In this document: piece after piece, positions 2,200 to 23,548 of the stretch
Position numbering within the stretch: position 1 is the stretch's first letter
Layout: the number at the start of each line of letters is the position of its first letter
Virus record (IMG/VR): IMGVR_UViG_3300025759_000716
Location: 1 to 23,548 of that record
Direction: 5' to 3' (one strand)
DNA length: 23,548 nucleotides
Origin: a virus
Notes under the pieces: model-generated
Told to the model about the DNA's origin: nothing
Database searches by the model: none
Seen by the model: only the letters and a program-made list of their open reading frames with translations
Made by a program: the position numbers and the translations under genes

Positions 2200-4572
2200 A
2201 TGGCAGCCCGAACGCTTACCTGTAATTTCCGAACATTAGTAAATGCCTCAGTTGGCGAAGGGCTGACAGTAACGCTTTATTCAGAGCAGTTTGATAACAC
2301 CGGATCAGCGGTGATTGTCATCAGCGCAGACACTACAACTACCGATGCAAACGGCGACTGCTCTTTTTCTAATGTCATTCCGAATACTGATGGCGGTCAG
2401 GCGAACCGCTATCGCGTAACGCTCCGCGACTCCGACGGAGTTGAGATATTCAATTCCGACTTCCAGATGCCGGATGCTAACTCAAATCTGCATGACTTGA
2501 TTGACGCCGCCGCCGCTGCCAGTTCGCGTACTCCATACCTCGACGCTAACAACCTCTGGACTGGCAACAACACTTTCGGCACCACATCGAGCACAACCAC
2601 AACGGTTTTCAATGGTTCGATCACGCTGGACAGCGTAAACATTACAGACATTATTGACGATGACTCGATGGCTACCGCGACAGCCACCAGCCTATCGACC
2701 AGCGAGAGCATCAAGGCTTATGCCGACAGCCTGATTGCAGGGAACAACGAACTCTCTGAAATCCTAGCCAACGGCAACAATACTGGCGCAAACAATATTA
2801 TCGTTGCCGCTGGTCAGCAGATTACAACTAACGAGATCAATGAAACTACTGCTGATGCTGGCGTAACTGTTGATGGCGTGGAATTGAAAGATGGCTTGGT
2901 CGATGGCAGAGATGTTGCAGTCGATGGTGTAAAGCTTGATGGCGTAGAGGCTGGAGCGACTGGTGATCAAAGCGCCAGCGAAATCAAAACCTTATACGAG
3001 TCAAACGCTGATACCAACGCTTTCACTGATGCAGAGAAAGCCAAACTGACAGGCATCGAGGCAGGTGCTACCGGCGACCAAACTGGCGCAGAGATCAAAG
3101 CTCTTTACGAATCCGAAGCAAACACTAACGCATTTACGGATACCGAGAAAAGCAAGCTATCTGGAATCGAGTCAGGCGCGACCGGTGACCAAACCGCCAG
3201 CGAGATCAAGACTGCCTACGAATTAAATGCCGACACGAATGCATTTACGGATTCAGAAAAAACGAAATTGTCAGGTATCGAATCGGGAGCCACAGCCGAC
3301 CAAAGCGCAAGCGAAATTCGTGCGCTGGTTGAATCTGCTACTGATAGCAATGTGTTTACGGACGCCGACCACAGCAAACTTGATGGCATCGAAGCTGGCG
3401 CTGACGTAACCGATGCAACTAATGTCGATGCGGCTGGCGCAGTAATGAACACTGATGCGTCTACAGCCGGAATGTCGTTTGTTATCAACGATGACACTAT
3501 GGCAAGTGCGTCAGACACGACTGTTCCCACAAGCGATTCAGTCAAACAATTCGTGCTCAATGAAATCACCTCGCAAGTTAGGTATCGTGGTGGGTATAAC
3601 GCGGCAACCAATACTCCTGATCTTGATACATCTCCTTCAGGAATTATTGTCGGCGATATGTACACAGTGACTGTCGCGGGTACGTTTTTTACGGCAAATG
3701 TTGAAATCGGTGATGTGTTAATTGCCGAACAAGATTCTCCGACGCTCGAATCACACTGGACTATTGTCAACGTTAACCTTGACGCGGCCAGCATCAAGGC
3801 ATCGTATGAGTCAAACGCTGACACCAACGCATTTACCGATGCCGAGAAAACCAAATTGTCTGGTATCGAGTCTGGCGCAACGGCAGATCAAACAGGGGCT
3901 GAAATCAAGTCTCTTTACGAATCGGAGGCCGACACCAACGCATTTACTGACGCAGAGAAAACTAAGTTGTCGGGTATTGCTGCTGGCGCAGAGGTCAATG
4001 ATCCGACAACTCTTTTAGACGCGGACATAGGCGTCAACGTGCAGGGCTACTCTGCTGTTCTTGCTGGCACGACTGCATCTTATACGACTGCGGAAGAAAG
4101 CAAGTTGGCTGGGATTGAAGCAGGCGCTACGGCAGATCAGACTGCTAGTGAGATCCGTGCTCTGGTTGAATCTGCAACAGACTCGAATGTCTTTACCGAT
4201 GCGGATCACTCAAAGCTGAACGGCATTGCCTCCGGTGCTCAGGTCAACGACCCGACGACACTGTTGGATGCTGACATTGGTGTGAATGTTCAGGCCTACT
4301 CAGCGGTACTGGCTGGCACAACGGCCAGCTACACCACAGCAGAACAGTCGAAACTGTCCGGTATCGAGGCGGGTGCTACTGCTGATCAATCTAATGCTGA
4401 GATTGAGGCGGCCTATAACGCACAGGTTGGCGTGGTTTCCCAAGCCAATGCTGAAGCGGGCACGTCCACTACGGTGTACCGCTGGACGCCACAGCGCGTC
4501 GCTCAGGCTATCGCAGCCAATGCGTCGTCTGGTTTTGCAAAAGCTGAACTCAAATTCTTTGGACGGAGGTAG
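2200..4572 (+). CDS. Repeat-rich tail fibre protein
   Basis: This 790-aa protein is probably a trimeric tail fibre or adhesin. The N-terminal ~105 residues look like a beta-rich attachment domain. The rest is built from repeats found in many phage fibres: a 37-residue unit with the core NADTNAFTDAEKTKLSGI, four in tandem from residue 250; an intervening segment (about 402-530) with its own fold; and a second repeat block to about residue 735, including an 83-residue super-repeat with LLDADIGVNVQ. The motif pattern DDsMAtAtAt..lsTSeSiK occurs at about 151-176 and again at 428-451. The C-terminus YRWTPQRVAQAI resembles a common fibre ending. It follows the terminase by seven bases with a weak AGGTG upstream. 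The receptor is unknown. Confidence 0.82.
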   Translation: MAARTLTCNFRTLVNASVGEGLTVTLYSEQFDNTGSAVIVISADTTTTDANGDCSFSNVIPNTDGGQANRYRVTLRDSDGVEIFNSDFQMPDANSNLHDLIDAAAAASSRTPYLDANNLWTGNNTFGTTSSTTTTVFNGSITLDSVNITDIIDDDSMATATATSLSTSESIKAYADSLIAGNNELSEILANGNNTGANNIIVAAGQQITTNEINETTADAGVTVDGVELKDGLVDGRDVAVDGVKLDGVEAGATGDQSASEIKTLYESNADTNAFTDAEKAKLTGIEAGATGDQTGAEIKALYESEANTNAFTDTEKSKLSGIESGATGDQTASEIKTAYELNADTNAFTDSEKTKLSGIESGATADQSASEIRALVESATDSNVFTDADHSKLDGIEAGADVTDATNVDAAGAVMNTDASTAGMSFVINDDTMASASDTTVPTSDSVKQFVLNEITSQVRYRGGYNAATNTPDLDTSPSGIIVGDMYTVTVAGTFFTANVEIGDVLIAEQDSPTLESHWTIVNVNLDAASIKASYESNADTNAFTDAEKTKLSGIESGATADQTGAEIKSLYESEADTNAFTDAEKTKLSGIAAGAEVNDPTTLLDADIGVNVQGYSAVLAGTTASYTTAEESKLAGIEAGATADQTASEIRALVESATDSNVFTDADHSKLNGIASGAQVNDPTTLLDADIGVNVQAYSAVLAGTTASYTTAEQSKLSGIEAGATADQSNAEIEAAYNAQVGVVSQANAEAGTSTTVYRWTPQRVAQAIAANASSGFAKAELKFFGRR
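2947..3390 (+). repeat. Four tandem 111-bp (37-aa) fibre repeats
   Basis: Units start at 2947, 3058, 3169 and 3280, each at a Glu codon of the pattern E-(A/S)-G-A-T-(G/A)-D-Q. A fifth unit begins at 3391 but diverges after EAGAD. The repeat is clear in protein sequence but much weaker in DNA because synonymous codons differ between copies. It is coding and forms the shaft of the fibre. Confidence 0.9.
3991..4389 (+). repeat. 249-bp (83-aa) super-repeat in the fibre gene
   Basis: The segment starting at 3991 (codons for EVNDPTTLLDADIG) recurs at 4240, an offset of 249 bases; the second copy is shared up to about 4389. Over 47 aligned codons beginning at DPTT, 44 residues are identical but only nine codons are identical. 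The array is coding, with strong protein conservation and near-complete synonymous turnover. Confidence 0.9.
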
Positions 4573-4574
4573 CA

Positions 4575-4892
4575 ATGGCTACATTTTACGCAAGCGATGC
4601 CGGTACGCTGGTCGCTAATACGCCGAAAAACGTCGGCCAGTCTGCGACTACTGCAGGCAGCTACACAGCGAAGATTGTCAACAAGGGGGGTGTAACGGCG
4701 ACGGTATACCTCTCGACAAGCGCGACAGCCAACACACATGATGTAGACCGGTATGAGGTCTACGACTTCCAGTTGGTAGCCGGTGGTGCGCCGCTGGTAA
4801 TCGACTTTGATTTGGATGCGAACGAGTATCTGGTAATTACATCAAATGTGGTCGGCGTTTCGGCAAAGATGTCCGGCTACAAGAACGATTAA
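4575..4892 (+). CDS. Small beta-rich protein of the fibre block, function unknown
   Basis: This 105-aa protein has no motif I recognise. It is rich in Thr, Val and Ala with alternating hydrophobic residues, suggesting a small beta-sandwich, and lacks a signal peptide or membrane segment. A strong GGAGGT at 4565-4570 lies inside the end of the fibre gene, whose stop is two bases before this ATG, so it is probably made together with the fibre. A fibre cap, connector or accessory adhesin is possible; this rests only on position. Confidence 0.65.
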   Translation: MATFYASDAGTLVANTPKNVGQSATTAGSYTAKIVNKGGVTATVYLSTSATANTHDVDRYEVYDFQLVAGGAPLVIDFDLDANEYLVITSNVVGVSAKMSGYKND

Positions 4893-4906
4893 GTAAGGAG
4901 TAAACC

Positions 4907-5260
4907 ATGGCTGATAATTTTCCAGCTCAGACTTCGGCAGGTTTAAAGGAGTCCCTGATCACAGCATCGGGGACTACTCCTTCTCTTGACTGTAGTCTCG
5001 GTAATAATTTCAAAATATCAACAACAGGCAATACCACTTTCACCTTCTCTAATCCTGCGGCATCCGGGGAGGTGACTGCTATCACATTAGTCGTTACACA
5101 GGGAGGATCATACAGCCTTACTTGGCCTGCCTCGGTTGATTGGCCGGCAGGCAGCGCTCCGAGCGCACCCGCTTCTGGTGCCGTCAATAGTTATGTCTTT
5201 ATGACCAATGATGGTGGCACTACTTGGTATGGATTCTTGGCAGGAGAGGACTTGTCGTGA
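4907..5260 (+). CDS. Small phage tail/fibre-associated protein
   Basis: This 117-aa protein is beta-rich with no membrane segment. The C-terminal half, including WPASVDWPAG and DGGTTWYGFLAG, resembles a module I know from the ends of phage fibre or other tail-associated proteins, here as a free-standing gene. An AAGGAG box lies just before ATG 4907. Its last four bases overlap the GTG start of the LamG protein, so the two are translationally coupled. A structural role at the fibre tip or base is likely but unproven. Confidence 0.7.
   Translation: MADNFPAQTSAGLKESLITASGTTPSLDCSLGNNFKISTTGNTTFTFSNPAASGEVTAITLVVTQGGSYSLTWPASVDWPAGSAPSAPASGAVNSYVFMTNDGGTTWYGFLAGEDLS
5242..5250 (+). promoter_or_regulatory. 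Shine-Dalgarno that sets the GTG start at 5257
   Basis: AGGAGAGGA sits six bases before GTG 5257. It supports that start over the in-frame TTG at 5224, which lies upstream of this box within the preceding gene. Confidence 0.75.
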
Positions 5261-7236
5261 GTCTAGCTTCCAGAAAGTTAATTCAGGCGGCGGCTAATGC
5301 TGGCGCCCCTAGTGACGACTACTGGAACAGCGTCCAGCTCCTCCTGAATGGCGACAAGGGCGCTGACGGGGACAACAACACGACGTTCACTGGAGCCACG
5401 ATCACGGGTTCACCTGATGCTGCTAACGTCAACCCTTACGGCGCTCACTACTTTGATTTTACGGGCGGAGAACTCGATGTCTTAGAGACAGGAACGGAAT
5501 TCACTTTTGGTACTGGCGACTTTACGGTAGAGCTCTGGGTCAATTTTGATGCCCTGAGTGGCCTTGCGGTTATTCTGGACTGGAGGAGCGCGGCGGGCGG
5601 TTCTGCTGGCCGCGGGTCGCTCTACACAAATGGCACGAGCCTTATCTGGTTCAATGGAACGGGAACCGTAGTAAGCACGACCGTGGCGACAGGCCAATGG
5701 TATCATGTGGCCGTGTCCAGATCAGGGTCCACGACCAAGCTATTTTTGGATGGAGTGGAGTCCGGCAGCGCCACCGACAGCACAAACTACATTGCTCCGG
5801 CAGACAACCTGCACATTGGAGGGCTTAACGGGACCTACAATATAAATGCAAAGATGTCTAACTTGCGCATAGTCAAGGGTACGGCTTTGTACACTGCGGC
5901 ATTCACACCCCCAACCAAGACCCTGACCGACGTAACCGGAACCTCTCTGCTGACCTTTGTCAACGGGGCTATTGTCGATTACTCGTCAGAGGCTCACGAT
6001 ATCACGACTGCAGCCGGGGCTGTTAGGGCGTATCCGGGCGGGCCACTGAATAAGCCGTACGATGAGAATGCAGGGTCTATCGTCTACCCCAACGACACTA
6101 GCGGCAGCGCAAACTATGTAGACTACTCGGGCGCCCAAACGGGAATGGGTACAACCTTCACGATTGAGTTTTGGTATTATCCTTATACTGTAAACACCAC
6201 TTATGCGGACGGCTCGATTGCGTGTCTACTTGATGCCGAGGCCAGCGCAGGGTCTAGCACAGCGGATTACTGGTCCGTCTTTCAATCATCTGACGACCTT
6301 CGATTTTACAGCGGCGGCGGTGGCGGCGTTACAGTTGAAGGCTCGTGGCTCAATGTGCTTAAGGACCTCTCGTGGCACCACATAATGATAACGGGAGATG
6401 GCACTAATGTCGAGCTATTTGTTAATGGTGTGTCGCAGGGGACCAGTGCGTTTACCTACGGTACTGGTACGGGAACGCGAAAGCTCCGGGTGGGGAGAGA
6501 GGACAGCGCTTTCTCTCGGTACGTGAGAGGACTCATCTCAGACGTTCGCCTCAGCGACACGGTCCGAGAGACTGCTGACTTCACGCCTCCTACTGCGCCA
6601 CTCACGAGTGATGCCAACACCACAGAGCTGCTGCAGTTCAACGAGGCAGCTTGTGGCGACTTGACCGGAAGGGCTATCGTGACCGAGGCGGGCGATGCCC
6701 AGATGGACACAGGCATCTTCAAGTACGGCGCGGGGTCTCTGCTGTTTGACGGAACTGGTGATTATCTCGCCTACGATGACTCGTCCTTGACGGTTGGCGA
6801 TGGAGACTTTACGGCTGAGGGATGGGTTTATTGGTCATCAATCGCGGCAAACGATAGTGTCATTTTCGATGCTAGAGATGTAAACCTATCTTCAACCGGA
6901 TGGGTTTTAAACATACGCAGCACTAATAAGGTGATCCGCTTCTTTACAGGCTCGGTAGGCTACGATGGAGTCACGGCTACAACCGTCAACACATGGCATC
7001 ATGTTGCTGTGACGCGAGAAGGTACGACCCTCCGCATCTTCCTCGACGGTAACCTCGATGCCACGCACACAGTGACCAACAACTTTACTGACGGGCAGGT
7101 CAAAATTGGACAAGGCGTATACTCCAGCAGCGACTGGAACGGCCATATGGACGATTTACGCATCACCAAGGACGTGGCTAGGTACACAGCCAACTTTACA
7201 CCACCAACAAGAGCAGCGGAGACGCAACAGACATGA
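5257..7236 (+). CDS. Tail adhesin with three LamG/concanavalin-like domains
   Basis: This 659-aa protein is probably a receptor-binding part of the tail. It contains three laminin-G-3 / concanavalin-A-like lectin domains at about residues 65-218, 285-447 and 495-651. Each has the diagnostic strand motif (WYHVAVSRSG at 148, WHHIMITGDG at 373, WHHVAVTREG at 580), followed by lFlDG or lFVNG, and ends in FTPPT. Such domains usually bind glycans. The copies are clearly divergent from each other. The GTG start overlaps the previous stop (GTGA) and the stop overlaps the next start (ATGA), placing it in a tightly coupled fibre operon. No enzymatic motif is visible. Confidence 0.85.
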   Translation: MSLASRKLIQAAANAGAPSDDYWNSVQLLLNGDKGADGDNNTTFTGATITGSPDAANVNPYGAHYFDFTGGELDVLETGTEFTFGTGDFTVELWVNFDALSGLAVILDWRSAAGGSAGRGSLYTNGTSLIWFNGTGTVVSTTVATGQWYHVAVSRSGSTTKLFLDGVESGSATDSTNYIAPADNLHIGGLNGTYNINAKMSNLRIVKGTALYTAAFTPPTKTLTDVTGTSLLTFVNGAIVDYSSEAHDITTAAGAVRAYPGGPLNKPYDENAGSIVYPNDTSGSANYVDYSGAQTGMGTTFTIEFWYYPYTVNTTYADGSIACLLDAEASAGSSTADYWSVFQSSDDLRFYSGGGGGVTVEGSWLNVLKDLSWHHIMITGDGTNVELFVNGVSQGTSAFTYGTGTGTRKLRVGREDSAFSRYVRGLISDVRLSDTVRETADFTPPTAPLTSDANTTELLQFNEAACGDLTGRAIVTEAGDAQMDTGIFKYGAGSLLFDGTGDYLAYDDSSLTVGDGDFTAEGWVYWSSIAANDSVIFDARDVNLSSTGWVLNIRSTNKVIRFFTGSVGYDGVTATTVNTWHHVAVTREGTTLRIFLDGNLDATHTVTNNFTDGQVKIGQGVYSSSDWNGHMDDLRITKDVARYTANFTPPTRAAETQQT

Positions 7237-7793
7237 AATTAGCTAAAGTAACAGACGGCGTTGTTGAAATTGTTGACAGCGCATCCGAGTGGCCCAATGT
7301 GTCATTCCCGAAGAAAGGCCCTAACGCTGAATGGATGGGGCAGAGCGGTGTTGTGCCGTTTGCAAAGCGCCCGAGCTACGACCGATCGACACACAAGTGC
7401 GTAAGCGCAACCCCGTTCCTGGAGGATGGCAAGTGCCAGAGATGGCAGGCTGTCGCCAAGACTGCCGAGGAGATTGCTGCGGAGCAAGAGGTCGAGCAGA
7501 AGCGCACCGACAAGAGTCTAAAGGACTTTCTGGAGGCTCAGGTTGATCCCCTCACGCAGGAATACTCTCCCTCAGAGATCGCTTCATGGCCGATCCAACT
7601 CAGTGAGGCTCGTGCTTATCTTGATGACCCCGCCGCCTACACGCCATTCATGGACGCCGTGTGCGTCGAGTCTGGTGAAGACAAGGTGGACTATGCCAAC
7701 AGTATCATTGCCAAGGCGGAGACTTATTCCGCTATGGTTGGTAAGGCCTTGGGTAAGAAAAGGAAGGCATTAAACCTTGACCATACCAGATGA
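7233..7793 (+). CDS. Tail fibre assembly-like protein
   Basis: This 186-aa protein has a short N-terminal beta-rich region, a charged helical linker (about 75-105), and a C-terminal segment with ASWPIQLSEARAYL and TPFMDAV. That segment is typical of phage fibre-assembly or DUF4376-like proteins encoded directly after fibre genes. These act as chaperones or as the terminal part of the fibre. It overlaps the LamG gene by ATGA. The very basic end (GKKRKALN) is notable. The family assignment rests on the C-terminal pattern and position. Confidence 0.6.
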   Translation: MKLAKVTDGVVEIVDSASEWPNVSFPKKGPNAEWMGQSGVVPFAKRPSYDRSTHKCVSATPFLEDGKCQRWQAVAKTAEEIAAEQEVEQKRTDKSLKDFLEAQVDPLTQEYSPSEIASWPIQLSEARAYLDDPAAYTPFMDAVCVESGEDKVDYANSIIAKAETYSAMVGKALGKKRKALNLDHTR

Positions 7794-19213: not shown

Positions 19214-19608
19214 TGAACGAAAGACAAAAAGCAGTCAGGGAAATTATGCTGGAATATGCAGGCGAGCCGTTTGAATGGGGTTCGCTTGATTGCTGTCACT
19301 TCGCGGCAAAGGTTGCTGAAAGAATAACGGGTGTTGATTATTCGGCAGGCTTCGATTACTGGTCAGAGCAAGGGGCTGAAACAATCATTGAAAGGTTTGG
19401 CGATCTGACTGGCTTGGTATCGCACATTTTGAATCGCAGCCATGTTGAGATAAGCGCGCTCGATGTTGGCGATCCTTGCTTAGTGAGAATTCCCATTCAA
19501 GGTGATTTGCTTGGAATCTACAATGGCAACAATGCAATCGTAAAAATGAAAGCGAGAGCGTATCAGGTTGAGCGCAAGCGCGTGATGTGGGGGTGGAACA
19601 TTGGCTAA
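19213..19608 (+). CDS. NlpC/P60-like tail protein, DUF6950 type
   Basis: This 131-aa protein resembles the small NlpC/P60-related proteins encoded before the hub gene of many siphophages, which are thought to help the tail cross or assemble at the cell wall. The core motif FEWGSLDCCHFAAKVAERITG (from residue 20, the first 20 matching best) carries Cys27 in the Asp-Cys position. The matching later segment DVGDPCLVRI...LLGIYNGN lacks an obvious catalytic His, so enzymatic activity is doubtful. ATG 19213 is preferred over the in-frame TTG at 19210, since it overlaps the upstream stop as TGATG. It overlaps the hub TTG start at its 3' end. Confidence 0.78.
   Translation: MNERQKAVREIMLEYAGEPFEWGSLDCCHFAAKVAERITGVDYSAGFDYWSEQGAETIIERFGDLTGLVSHILNRSHVEISALDVGDPCLVRIPIQGDLLGIYNGNNAIVKMKARAYQVERKRVMWGWNIG
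19589..19597 (+). promoter_or_regulatory. Shine-Dalgarno deciding the TTG start of the hub gene
   Basis: GGGGGTGGA lies three bases before TTG 19601. The reading frame opens only after a TGA at 19583-19585, and no ATG lies nearby, so TTG 19601 is the best start. Confidence 0.6.
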
Positions 19609-22600
19609 CGCAGTCATAAATTGGGTAGTCAATACGCTTGTCACTATTGGTGTCAGTGCTGAAACGGCTGTTGCTGTCGGAAATGTTTTAACTACCATTG
19701 CGGCAAGCAAGACTTTCGCCACTATTGCCACGCTTGCTGTTAGTTCTGCCGTGATGAAATCGAGGATGCCCGACCTTTCCGATAATGCGGATTTGAAACG
19801 GGACATAAATATCAGGTCAGCTATCGAAGGGCGAAAAATACTCTACGGTGAAACTCAAGTCGGCGGCGTTGTCGTTTATACCAATGTTGGTGGTACTGAC
19901 AACTCCACGCTGACCGTTGTCATTGCTCATGCAGGACATCAGGTCAACGATATGACTGATTTCTATCTGGATGGTACGCTGATCGCTGACGCTGATATCG
20001 GCAGTGGTGCTGGTGCCGATAGCGGATTGCAGCAAGTTTCTGGCGGCGCTTATTACAGCGCAACTTCTGGTCAGGGTTATGTCAGCATTGATCGCCGCAC
20101 TGGTTCACCGACTCAAGCAACAAACTCACTTTTGAATTCGCAGTTTCCATCTGATTTCGATACGGCAGACCGTGGCAGAGAGATTGCGTATTCACTGGTT
20201 CAGTTGCGCCTCGAAGAAATCAGCGAAAAAATGTTTGAGTCTGGCGCGCCTTCTGCTTACAAGTGTTTGATTCAGGGAAAGCTGCTTTACGATCCGGCTG
20301 CTGACGCTGGTGTTGCTGGCGCTGATATGATCGCCAATGGTTTTAGTTCTGGCACGTACAAATCATATTCAACCAATCCGGTACTCGCTGCTATCGATTA
20401 CATGATGGATGATCGGCTAGGCATGGCGATTGATCCATCCAAGATTGATTGGGATGAAGTTGTAGACGAAGCCGCGTATTGCGATCAGCCAGTGGTGAAT
20501 AGCACGACAGGTCAGCGTGAAACACGCTTCACCTGTAACGGTGTGCTTTCCACTTACGACACGCACAAAACTAATCTGCAACGCTTGCTGTCATCTTGTA
20601 ATGGTTCCATTGCTTACAAAAACGGCAAATGGTTCGTTAAGGTCGGTCGCTATGGTCAGGGTGCGAACCTTGTCAGCAACGGCGATTTTTCCGGTGGTCT
20701 AACAGGCTGGACAACATTCGGCACCGCCACCACGAACACAGTTACCAGCGAACGGCTTGAACTGGTCGTTGCTGCTGGTAATAAAGCAGGACGTTACCAA
20801 ACACTATCAGGGTTGACGGTCGGTAACCTTTACACTGTGTCTGTTCTGTTTGAGAACATGAGCATCGGCGCATCGTCAACCGCTGAGTGTACGGTATCAA
20901 CTGGAACGGCTGACAGCGGCACGAATCTCGGCGGGGCCAATATCGGCGTTGGTGGTCAAGATGGTAATTATGAGTTCGATTTCATTGCAACAGGGACTAC
21001 GGCTTATCTGAATCTCTTTATCAATGCGGCGAATAACAGCAGCGGGTTTTTCGATAACGTCGAAACCTATCTGGTCGCTGAAAAGACAGTTACGGCAGAT
21101 TGGCTTCGTGACACTGTAGGCATTCAAACTGGTTTGACGAAAGCTGAAAGATACAATGGCGCTAGGGCGTTTTATTTCAGCAAGGACGAAACTTATAAGC
21201 AGGTGCAGACCTTAGAGGTCACCAGCACTGTAAACCTATCACGTGACAATCAGGAAGTGTTGTTCAGAGAAATCAACCTTCCCTGCACTGATACCGAGGA
21301 CGAATCGCAGCGCATCCTTTACAAGTTGCTCAAGATGAACGAGCAGAATGTACGCCTGACGGTTCCTTGTAACTATCTGGCGCTCGATGTGGCTGTGCAT
21401 GACCGAGTGATGGTCACCATTGATGAATTGAGTTACAGCAACAAGCCGTTTTTGGTTGAAGGCTGGCAGCTTGTAGACAATCAGGGTGGCGTTGATCTTA
21501 TCTTGATCGAGGATGACAACGACTATTGGCGCGACCCTGATCAGAATGATTACGCCACACGAACGGCGACAGGTGCGCTTGTGCCTGCAACGCCTGAAGT
21601 TCCACCGCCGACCAACGTTACGCTCACCGCAAAAACTGATTTACCATCATTTTTGATAACTTGGGACGATCCTGAACCGTCGAGCATGTTCGACTTTGCG
21701 CAGGTATATCGCTCAACCACAAACAGTTTTGGCTCTGCAACCGTTCTCGTAGATACTCGCGCAAACGCATTTGTTGACACGACCGTTACTGCTGGAACGA
21801 CATACTACTATTGGGTGCGGTCAAGAAAATGGAATGAATTTTCTACCGAAGTCGCTACGACCCCGACTAATTCCGCAGCGGCCACGATCAGTGCCACGAG
21901 CATCGAATGGGCTGCGGTTCTTGATGGTGCTGGAACTCGGCCAGATGACAATGCGACTGTCGGCGGCCAGCTTGGAACAAATATCCTCGACGAAGGCGGC
22001 GCAACGCTTTCAGATATTGATGCTGTAAATGACTACGCGCAATCGGGTGGATTCGTTGCAGCCAATCCCAATGCGTACATGGATATCGTCAAAAGTGATG
22101 GTACACCGCAAGGCTATTGGATTGGCGATCAGTCGGGATCAGCAGCGCGCACTGATTTGCTTGGCTACACCGACGCGAACCGTGATGTGATGGAAGTAAC
22201 AAACAGCGGCGGGTCGATTCCGGTGATCTGTACAACCGCCATCAGGGCAGACTATTTCAATCGCTTGAAGGTTTGGGCGCGCATGAAATGCGACTCATCA
22301 ACCAGCGTCTATATTCGCATGAGGCAGTTTGATACTTCCGACCTTGGCGCTGACAAACTGGCAGTCGGGACAGCATCGCCGACGAATGCGGATTCAGAAG
22401 TGGTTACGGCAGACCGCTACTATGGCAACGTCACGCCTTCGGAAACTGCTTACTCTTTGACTAGCGGCTATAGCGAAATCACTGTTGATTTCGGGTCGGT
22501 GTATAAAGATGACGATGACCTGAACACTGGCGCGGTTGATGAACCACGTTGGATTTCGGTTAGCTTTGAAGCGACCAGCGCTGTTGATGTGCAGGTCGAT

Positions 22601-23548
22601 TCTTTCATCGTCTATTGGGAACCGCTGACAATTATTCAAAACTCTGGCGCTCCGACGCTGCTCAACGCCTCAATGAAAGGTTTGCAATATAGTGACATTT
22701 CAACAGACGATTTGTATGTTTGCGATGGTACTGCGTGGAACAAAATTAATACTGCGCATCCAAGCGGCACTGACATTTCTTTCGTTGGCAATCAGGCGAT
22801 TGTTGACACTGTAAATGCATTCGATATTTTTGCTCTTGACGGGTCATATAATGTCAAAGTTGATTCTTCTGCCAACACCACGATTGATGCGACAAATTTC
22901 TTGGGTTTGACCGCAGGCATTTTGATCGAAGTTACGCAAAACCTCGACATGAACAGCAATAACATTGTCGGCGGCGGGACTATCACGGCGACAACTTTCA
23001 GCGGTTCGCTGTCAGGTAACGCCACAACCGCAACGACTGCTGGCACAGTGACAACCGCAGCGCAACCAGCGATCACCAGCGTCGGGACGCTAACCAGCCT
23101 AACTACCTCTGGCCTTGTTACTGCTCAAACCAGCGGCGCATCAGGCGGCGCACTTGTTGCCAGCAATACGAACGGCTCTTTTTCTGGTCTGCTCAATCAA
23201 GTAAAGGCGACTCGCGCAGCGTCGAGCGCATATCAGCTTTTACGTTGCGATGCGTCTGGCGGTGCTGATGCGAAGTTTAGGGTAAAAGGTGATGGTAATG
23301 TTACTTGCGATGGCAGCTTTACAGGTGGCGGCGCTGACTTTGCTGAATTCATGGAATGGGCAGATGGCAACCCAACAGGCGAGGATCGCGCCGGGATGGT
23401 GGTGCAGATTGCCGAGGGTTCTGGCGGCATGATCGAAGTGTGCACTGACCCCGCGAAAGCCATTGGAGTCATATCAGTCAACCCAACAGCAACAGGCGGC
23501 AGTGATTGGGCAGGCTGGCAGGGCAAATATGCTACTGATGCTTTCGGT
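19601..23548 (+). CDS. Central tail hub / host-specificity protein (lambda J-like), 3' end outside window
   Basis: At least 1316 codons are open to the window edge. This protein should close the tail tip and carry receptor-binding parts. The N-terminus has a hydrophobic stretch (about 7-50), then IRSAIEGRKILYGETQVGGV and LTVVIAHAGHQV, as in J and gene-transfer-agent hubs. A carbohydrate-binding-like sandwich (356-494, starting NLVSNGDFSGGLTGW) is inserted into the hub. An FN3-like domain lies at 666-750 (PPPTNVTLTA to YYYWVRSRK), followed by AGTRPDDNATVG, a fibre-like stretch with SGSLSGNATTATTAG (about 1130-1175), and the start of a Peptidase_G2-type domain (GADFAEFMEW at 1244-1253, then GVISVNPTA). 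The TTG start overlaps the previous stop region. Confidence 0.88.
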   Translation, partial: MANAVINWVVNTLVTIGVSAETAVAVGNVLTTIAASKTFATIATLAVSSAVMKSRMPDLSDNADLKRDINIRSAIEGRKILYGETQVGGVVVYTNVGGTDNSTLTVVIAHAGHQVNDMTDFYLDGTLIADADIGSGAGADSGLQQVSGGAYYSATSGQGYVSIDRRTGSPTQATNSLLNSQFPSDFDTADRGREIAYSLVQLRLEEISEKMFESGAPSAYKCLIQGKLLYDPAADAGVAGADMIANGFSSGTYKSYSTNPVLAAIDYMMDDRLGMAIDPSKIDWDEVVDEAAYCDQPVVNSTTGQRETRFTCNGVLSTYDTHKTNLQRLLSSCNGSIAYKNGKWFVKVGRYGQGANLVSNGDFSGGLTGWTTFGTATTNTVTSERLELVVAAGNKAGRYQTLSGLTVGNLYTVSVLFENMSIGASSTAECTVSTGTADSGTNLGGANIGVGGQDGNYEFDFIATGTTAYLNLFINAANNSSGFFDNVETYLVAEKTVTADWLRDTVGIQTGLTKAERYNGARAFYFSKDETYKQVQTLEVTSTVNLSRDNQEVLFREINLPCTDTEDESQRILYKLLKMNEQNVRLTVPCNYLALDVAVHDRVMVTIDELSYSNKPFLVEGWQLVDNQGGVDLILIEDDNDYWRDPDQNDYATRTATGALVPATPEVPPPTNVTLTAKTDLPSFLITWDDPEPSSMFDFAQVYRSTTNSFGSATVLVDTRANAFVDTTVTAGTTYYYWVRSRKWNEFSTEVATTPTNSAAATISATSIEWAAVLDGAGTRPDDNATVGGQLGTNILDEGGATLSDIDAVNDYAQSGGFVAANPNAYMDIVKSDGTPQGYWIGDQSGSAARTDLLGYTDANRDVMEVTNSGGSIPVICTTAIRADYFNRLKVWARMKCDSSTSVYIRMRQFDTSDLGADKLAVGTASPTNADSEVVTADRYYGNVTPSETAYSLTSGYSEITVDFGSVYKDDDDLNTGAVDEPRWISVSFEATSAVDVQVDSFIVYWEPLTIIQNSGAPTLLNASMKGLQYSDISTDDLYVCDGTAWNKINTAHPSGTDISFVGNQAIVDTVNAFDIFALDGSYNVKVDSSANTTIDATNFLGLTAGILIEVTQNLDMNSNNIVGGGTITATTFSGSLSGNATTATTAGTVTTAAQPAITSVGTLTSLTTSGLVTAQTSGASGGALVASNTNGSFSGLLNQVKATRAASSAYQLLRCDASGGADAKFRVKGDGNVTCDGSFTGGGADFAEFMEWADGNPTGEDRAGMVVQIAEGSGGMIEVCTDPAKAIGVISVNPTATGGSDWAGWQGKYATDAFG

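Follow-up and report, generated by a model that had tools for sequence, protein, structure and literature searches.

The repeat units of a predicted tail fibre of a marine phage, which keep nearly the same protein in largely different codons, are most probably (about 0.83) old paralogues that are saturated at synonymous positions and whose protein is held by purifying selection. The pattern is real, is general in the family of fibres that carry the unit called A below, and is ordinary in mechanism, being explained by known evolutionary processes. According to this reading, two protein modules, A (37 aa) and B (46 aa), would alternate along the fibre shaft, and their copies would have arisen through duplication, possibly aided by occasional unit-length recombination; the duplications would be old enough for synonymous positions to saturate, while purifying selection would have kept the residues, presumably for packing of the fibre shaft.

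The DNA analysed here, referred to as the window, comprises positions 1-23,548 of the IMG/VR virus record IMGVR_UViG_3300025759_000716, and this 23.5-kb record represents part of a tailed-phage genome: Pfam and PHROGs both recognise terL, portal and capsid domains, and PHROGs also recognise a tape measure. The ORF at 2200-4572 is placed among virion structural genes, between terL and portal; it matches PHROG tail fiber families (24456 with E 8.5e-76, the second-listed E value being 2.6e-75, and also 21412 and 32345), and its sole PDB match is the fibre gp28 of cyanophage P-SCSP1u (8I4M, E 6.7e-31). Judging from these sequence matches, it is a tail fibre of the family with A-type repeats (PHROG 24456/21412). 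The same gene order is found in the related phage L031, namely terS, terL, a fibre with A/B-type units, portal, protease and capsid, with a TerL that is 73% identical. The portal gene immediately follows terL in L082, and different ORFs occupy that position in L155, so that the slot between terL and portal appears to be a place where adhesion genes insert. In the window, it holds a block of fibre and lectin-like genes (2200-7793), which includes a 670-aa protein adjoining the fibre (5224-7236) with three lectin domains of the Laminin_G_3/ConA-like type (E 4.1e-54), and a short protein (4907-5260) that resembles fibre C-terminal domains (PHROG 9017, E 7.5e-13) and is possibly a detached fibre tip. 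Elsewhere, a very long ORF of at least 1316 aa (19601-23548) runs off the end of the record and carries TTAAQPAITSVGTLTSLTTSG-like fibre words close to its end.

The fibre ORF is assembled from units A and B, both of which are common in marine phages. Unit A has the consensus KLxGIEAGATADQTASEIRxLVESATDSNVFTDADHx, with a variant ending in FTDAEKx, and the arrangement in the window is four A units, a spacer, and then A-A-B-A-B. No convincing Pfam family was found for this widespread module; the Pfam matches of the unit arrays to DUF2922 and Lectin_like were discarded as spurious, being weak scores that added up across repeats. An AlphaFold2 monomer model of A1-A4, for which a trimeric shaft fold was the question, reached a pLDDT of 46 and a pTM of 0.21. 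The features are as follows; A5 and A6 are numbered according to the profile scan.

528-2192: terL, directly upstream of the fibre ORF
2200-4572, plus strand: predicted tail-fibre ORF, 790 aa (from the ORF, PHROG tail fiber families and the gene-order partner in L031)
2932-3042, plus strand: unit A1, 37 aa (repeat family with 111-nt spacing; unit profile)
3043-3153, plus strand: unit A2 (repeat family; unit profile)
3154-3264, plus strand: unit A3 (repeat family; unit profile)
3265-3375, plus strand: unit A4, ESATDSNVFTDADHS subtype, with the first ESATDS segment at 3331 (repeat family; profile)
3376-3786, plus strand: spacer without repeats, containing the ADVTDATNVDAAGAVMN module, which is widespread (60 aa align to other phages at 75% aa identity; matches P-SCSP1u gp28)
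3787-3852, plus strand: partial A unit, 22 aa (sequence)
3853-3963, plus strand: unit A5 (repeat family; unit profile)
3964-4101, plus strand: unit B1, 46 aa, with the first DPTT at 4000 (shares 41/46 aa with B2 but 10 codons)
4102-4212, plus strand: unit A6, with the second ESATDS segment at 4168 (34/37 aa and 10 codons shared with A4)
4213-4350, plus strand: unit B2, with the second DPTT at 4249 (alignment with B1)
4351-4416, plus strand: degenerate last A unit ahead of the C-terminal cap (repeat family D2)

The first-pass annotation had drawn attention to two copies of a segment starting at DPTT, 249 nt apart, in which 44 of 47 amino acids but 9 of 47 codons are identical, and these counts were reproduced exactly; bases are identical at 42, 44 and 11 of the 47 first, second and third codon positions, respectively. 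The same trend, which it had placed near 3328 and 4165, is present in the ESATDSNVFTDADHSKL segments, whose true starts are 3331 and 4168 (17/17 aa, 5/17 codons). When synonymous codons are drawn at random from the phage's own codon usage, 14.6 +/- 3.0 identical codons are expected for the DPTT pair (P(<=9)=0.04) and 6.1 for the ESATDS pair (P(<=5)=0.38), other A-unit pairs in the window scatter around the null expectation, and the ratio of observed to expected codon identity, pooled over the 15 A-A pairs, is 1.02. The DPTT pair falls slightly into the lower tail, as the extreme one of many pairs, and the synonymous sites of the window are saturated, that is, fully randomised, rather than over-dispersed.

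The divergence between units, estimated with the GY94 model, bears out the proposal of old duplications under strong protein selection. For B1/B2 the fit gives dS of ~4.9, with a lower limit of ~1.9 (the log-likelihood falls by 1.65 at dS 2 and by 3.56 at dS 1.5), and omega of ~0.015, while other unit pairs in the window give dS of 1.9-2.9 and omega of 0.03-0.08; synonymous saturation is accompanied by omega far below 1. B1 and B2 pose a puzzle of their own, in that they are mutually closest in protein (the best other B unit matched 34/46 residues at first comparison and ~77% later), so that their duplication should postdate known splits, yet no synonymous memory is left between them. This is accounted for by a duplication older than dS ~2 under constraint like that of TerL, perhaps with the added action of a filter that removes identical tandem copies. 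Most A units of the window have, in another phage, a protein relative at least as close as the closest one within their own gene.

Ordinary genes provide the scale against which these values can be read. TerL of L031 and L155, which is 84% identical in amino acids, shows a codon identity of 0.47, dS of 3.7 and omega of 0.028; this pair alone was used, since fits of the GY94 model to the window and its L031, L082 and L155 orthologues mostly went to infinite dS, i.e. saturation. The similar saturation of TerL shows that the divergence between units is not extraordinary in the phage group of the window. In close relatives, same-position omega is 0.082 in A units and 0.215 in the remainder of the fibre, flanking genes have a median of 0.093, and 18% of the 90 flanking-gene pairs have omega of 0.02 or less, which places B1/B2 at the low end of ordinary phage genes. 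At equal protein identity over 30 codons, median synonymous identity is 0.11-0.18 for repeats within genes and 0.18-0.85 for flanking genes, depending on gene-identity class; repeats keep much less synonymous identity than flanking genes, which indicates that the modules exceed most genes in constraint or in age.

At least several hundred IMG/VR contigs carry A/B-type units, and a sample of 139 non-redundant fibre genes with 416 A units, 109 of these genes having two or more, was used to extend the comparison to the family. Codon identity within genes is 0.517 against a null of 0.471 (109 genes), and that of A units between unrelated phages is 0.451 against 0.431. Amino acid identity of A units is 0.73 within a gene and 0.69 between phages, so that units of the same gene are about as distant from each other as from those of other phages. 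In the fibre genes of L239, L048 and L031, the words YDTAYGWGNHASAGY, ADMNTLGTTAIVSDMDTLADISSNI and TSTAAELNILDGV also repeat intragenically, at 90% protein identity or more and with random codons.

Recombination that exchanges individual units with those of other phages or other positions would also place neighbours with the same protein and different codons side by side, and this import of units, raised by the first-pass annotation, did leave traces, although as the explanation of the pattern it is rather unlikely. Among close relatives of other family members, unit counts are usually equal, and same-position units mostly share 0.6-1.0 of their codons, as compared to ~0.5 for paralogues of the same gene; the retention of codons at the same position indicates that arrays are mainly inherited unchanged. 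This in-register inheritance was seen in those phages; for the window phage, no close relative was found by which to date its own units. Against this background, sharp unit-length tracts stand out in three pairs of phages: unit 2 of L056/L120 (32 aa the same, 12 codons, flanks at 0.86 and 0.83; p 1e-8), unit 1 of L009/L014 (35 aa, 18 codons; p 4e-8) and unit 1 of L100/L109 (36 aa, 18 codons; p 2e-7). The order of unit subtypes also varies from phage to phage. However, clear independent replacements are rare (3 in 115 comparisons of units whose flanks are conserved), and the swapped unit in L056 and L109 is near a paralogue of its own gene (95/111 nt), so that two of the three swaps may represent intragenic copying. 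In the relatives, old duplication is therefore supplemented by the occasional replacement of a unit. Two earlier replacement matches were artefacts of flanks that were 100% identical and were dropped, and GC3 of units (0.41-0.63 in full units) was too noisy to serve as a sign of foreign origin.

A second possibility is that identical tandem copies of 111 nt are soon deleted by recombination or slippage and that the units that persist are those whose codons have diverged, which would be a mutational filter and not selection on codons. The scarcity of recent unit pairs (z>4 in 1.1%) is in its favour, as is the slightly lower retention of adjacent units compared to distant ones (0.062 against ~0.11), but this trend with distance is not significant (paired test, P=0.087), short-read metagenome assembly also loses identical repeats, and some recent tandem copies do exist (L016); as a full explanation, such survivorship is unlikely. 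Equally tentative is a broader scheme, in which marine phages would share a pool of short fibre modules with randomised codons, swapped between and within genes by unit-length recombination, thus yielding protein repeats without DNA repeats that would be stabilised against deletion.

The first-pass annotation had also suggested that selection favours differing codons in neighbouring units, since lower DNA identity would prevent the deletion of repeats by recombination. The DPTT pair lies below the null, as do a few other lineage-specific pairs (for example, 6 identical codons against 10.9 expected in L048), but the family points the other way. Within genes, the ratio of observed to expected codon identity is 1.10 (CI 1.06-1.15, bootstrap over 109 genes), that of tandem neighbours is 1.07 (1.03-1.11), and 28 of the 109 genes fall below expectation, so that the proposed deficit of DNA identity relative to a codon-usage-matched null did not materialise. 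The lower tail (z<-1.64) holds 3.4% of within-gene pairs and 4.5% of GC3-matched between-phage pairs, and intragenically repeated 9-25-mers are in total 1.6-22 fold above synonymous shuffles, the window gene not falling below its own shuffles. These tests, sensitive to a few percent, refute selection for dissimilarity as a general force, and it is very improbable as the cause of the pattern. An artefact of metagenome assembly or sampling is the least credible explanation of all: metagenomic contigs make up most of the relatives, and assembly copes badly with identical repeats, but highly diverged repeats assemble easily, and the same picture is seen in the cultured isolates S-CREM2, MA01 and S-B68 (525, 27 and 48 pairs, with retention of 0.25-0.33), the 604 within-gene pairs from isolates having a retention of 0.26 and 525 of them coming from the S-CREM2 long tail fibre. 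The latter, gp85 (L304), is a single gene of ~14.9 kb, and its 525 pairs are 30-codon windows with at least 26/30 identical amino acids in the stretch read.

Protein identity of 90-100% alongside almost no synonymous memory has now been measured in more than 100 marine phage genes, and calls for caution, since high protein identity among phage fibre repeats does not imply recent duplication. The fibre-repeat family also represents a clean natural system in which to separate old purifying selection, unit swapping and the loss of identical repeats. No account of scrambled codons in phage fibres came up in literature searches, and the string GATADQT appeared in no paper.

Several known fibres, namely P-SCSP1u gp28, the S-CREM2 long tail fiber gp85 and members of PHROG 24456/21412/32345, share the 37-aa unit of the window and the ADVTDATN module, according to profile, PDB and tblastn matches. 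The S-CREM2 long tail fiber is present in the virion proteome by mass spectrometry, with 286 unique peptides (PMC10665884), and for the P-SCSP1u fibre the N-terminus, and not the distal part, was resolved in the cryo-EM map (PMC10575957). The window phage differs from these in being a terL/portal/MCP phage whose fibre lies between terL and portal and has its own arrangement of units. Polyubiquitin-type repeat genes, for which Nei et al. 2000, according to PMC10457151, argued birth-and-death evolution under purifying selection, resemble the fibre units in that, as far as that account goes, nearly identical protein repeats accumulate synonymous differences. In polyubiquitin, according to the same description, repeats within a species are usually more alike than those between species, whereas fibre units within a gene are barely closer than those of unrelated phages. 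The general course of repeat evolution described by Persi, Wolf and Koonin 2016 (PMC5120217) is followed in part, as omega is higher in unsaturated within-gene fibre pairs (0.18) than in units at the same position in relatives (0.08); unlike the repeats in that work, most pairs of fibre units are synonymously saturated.
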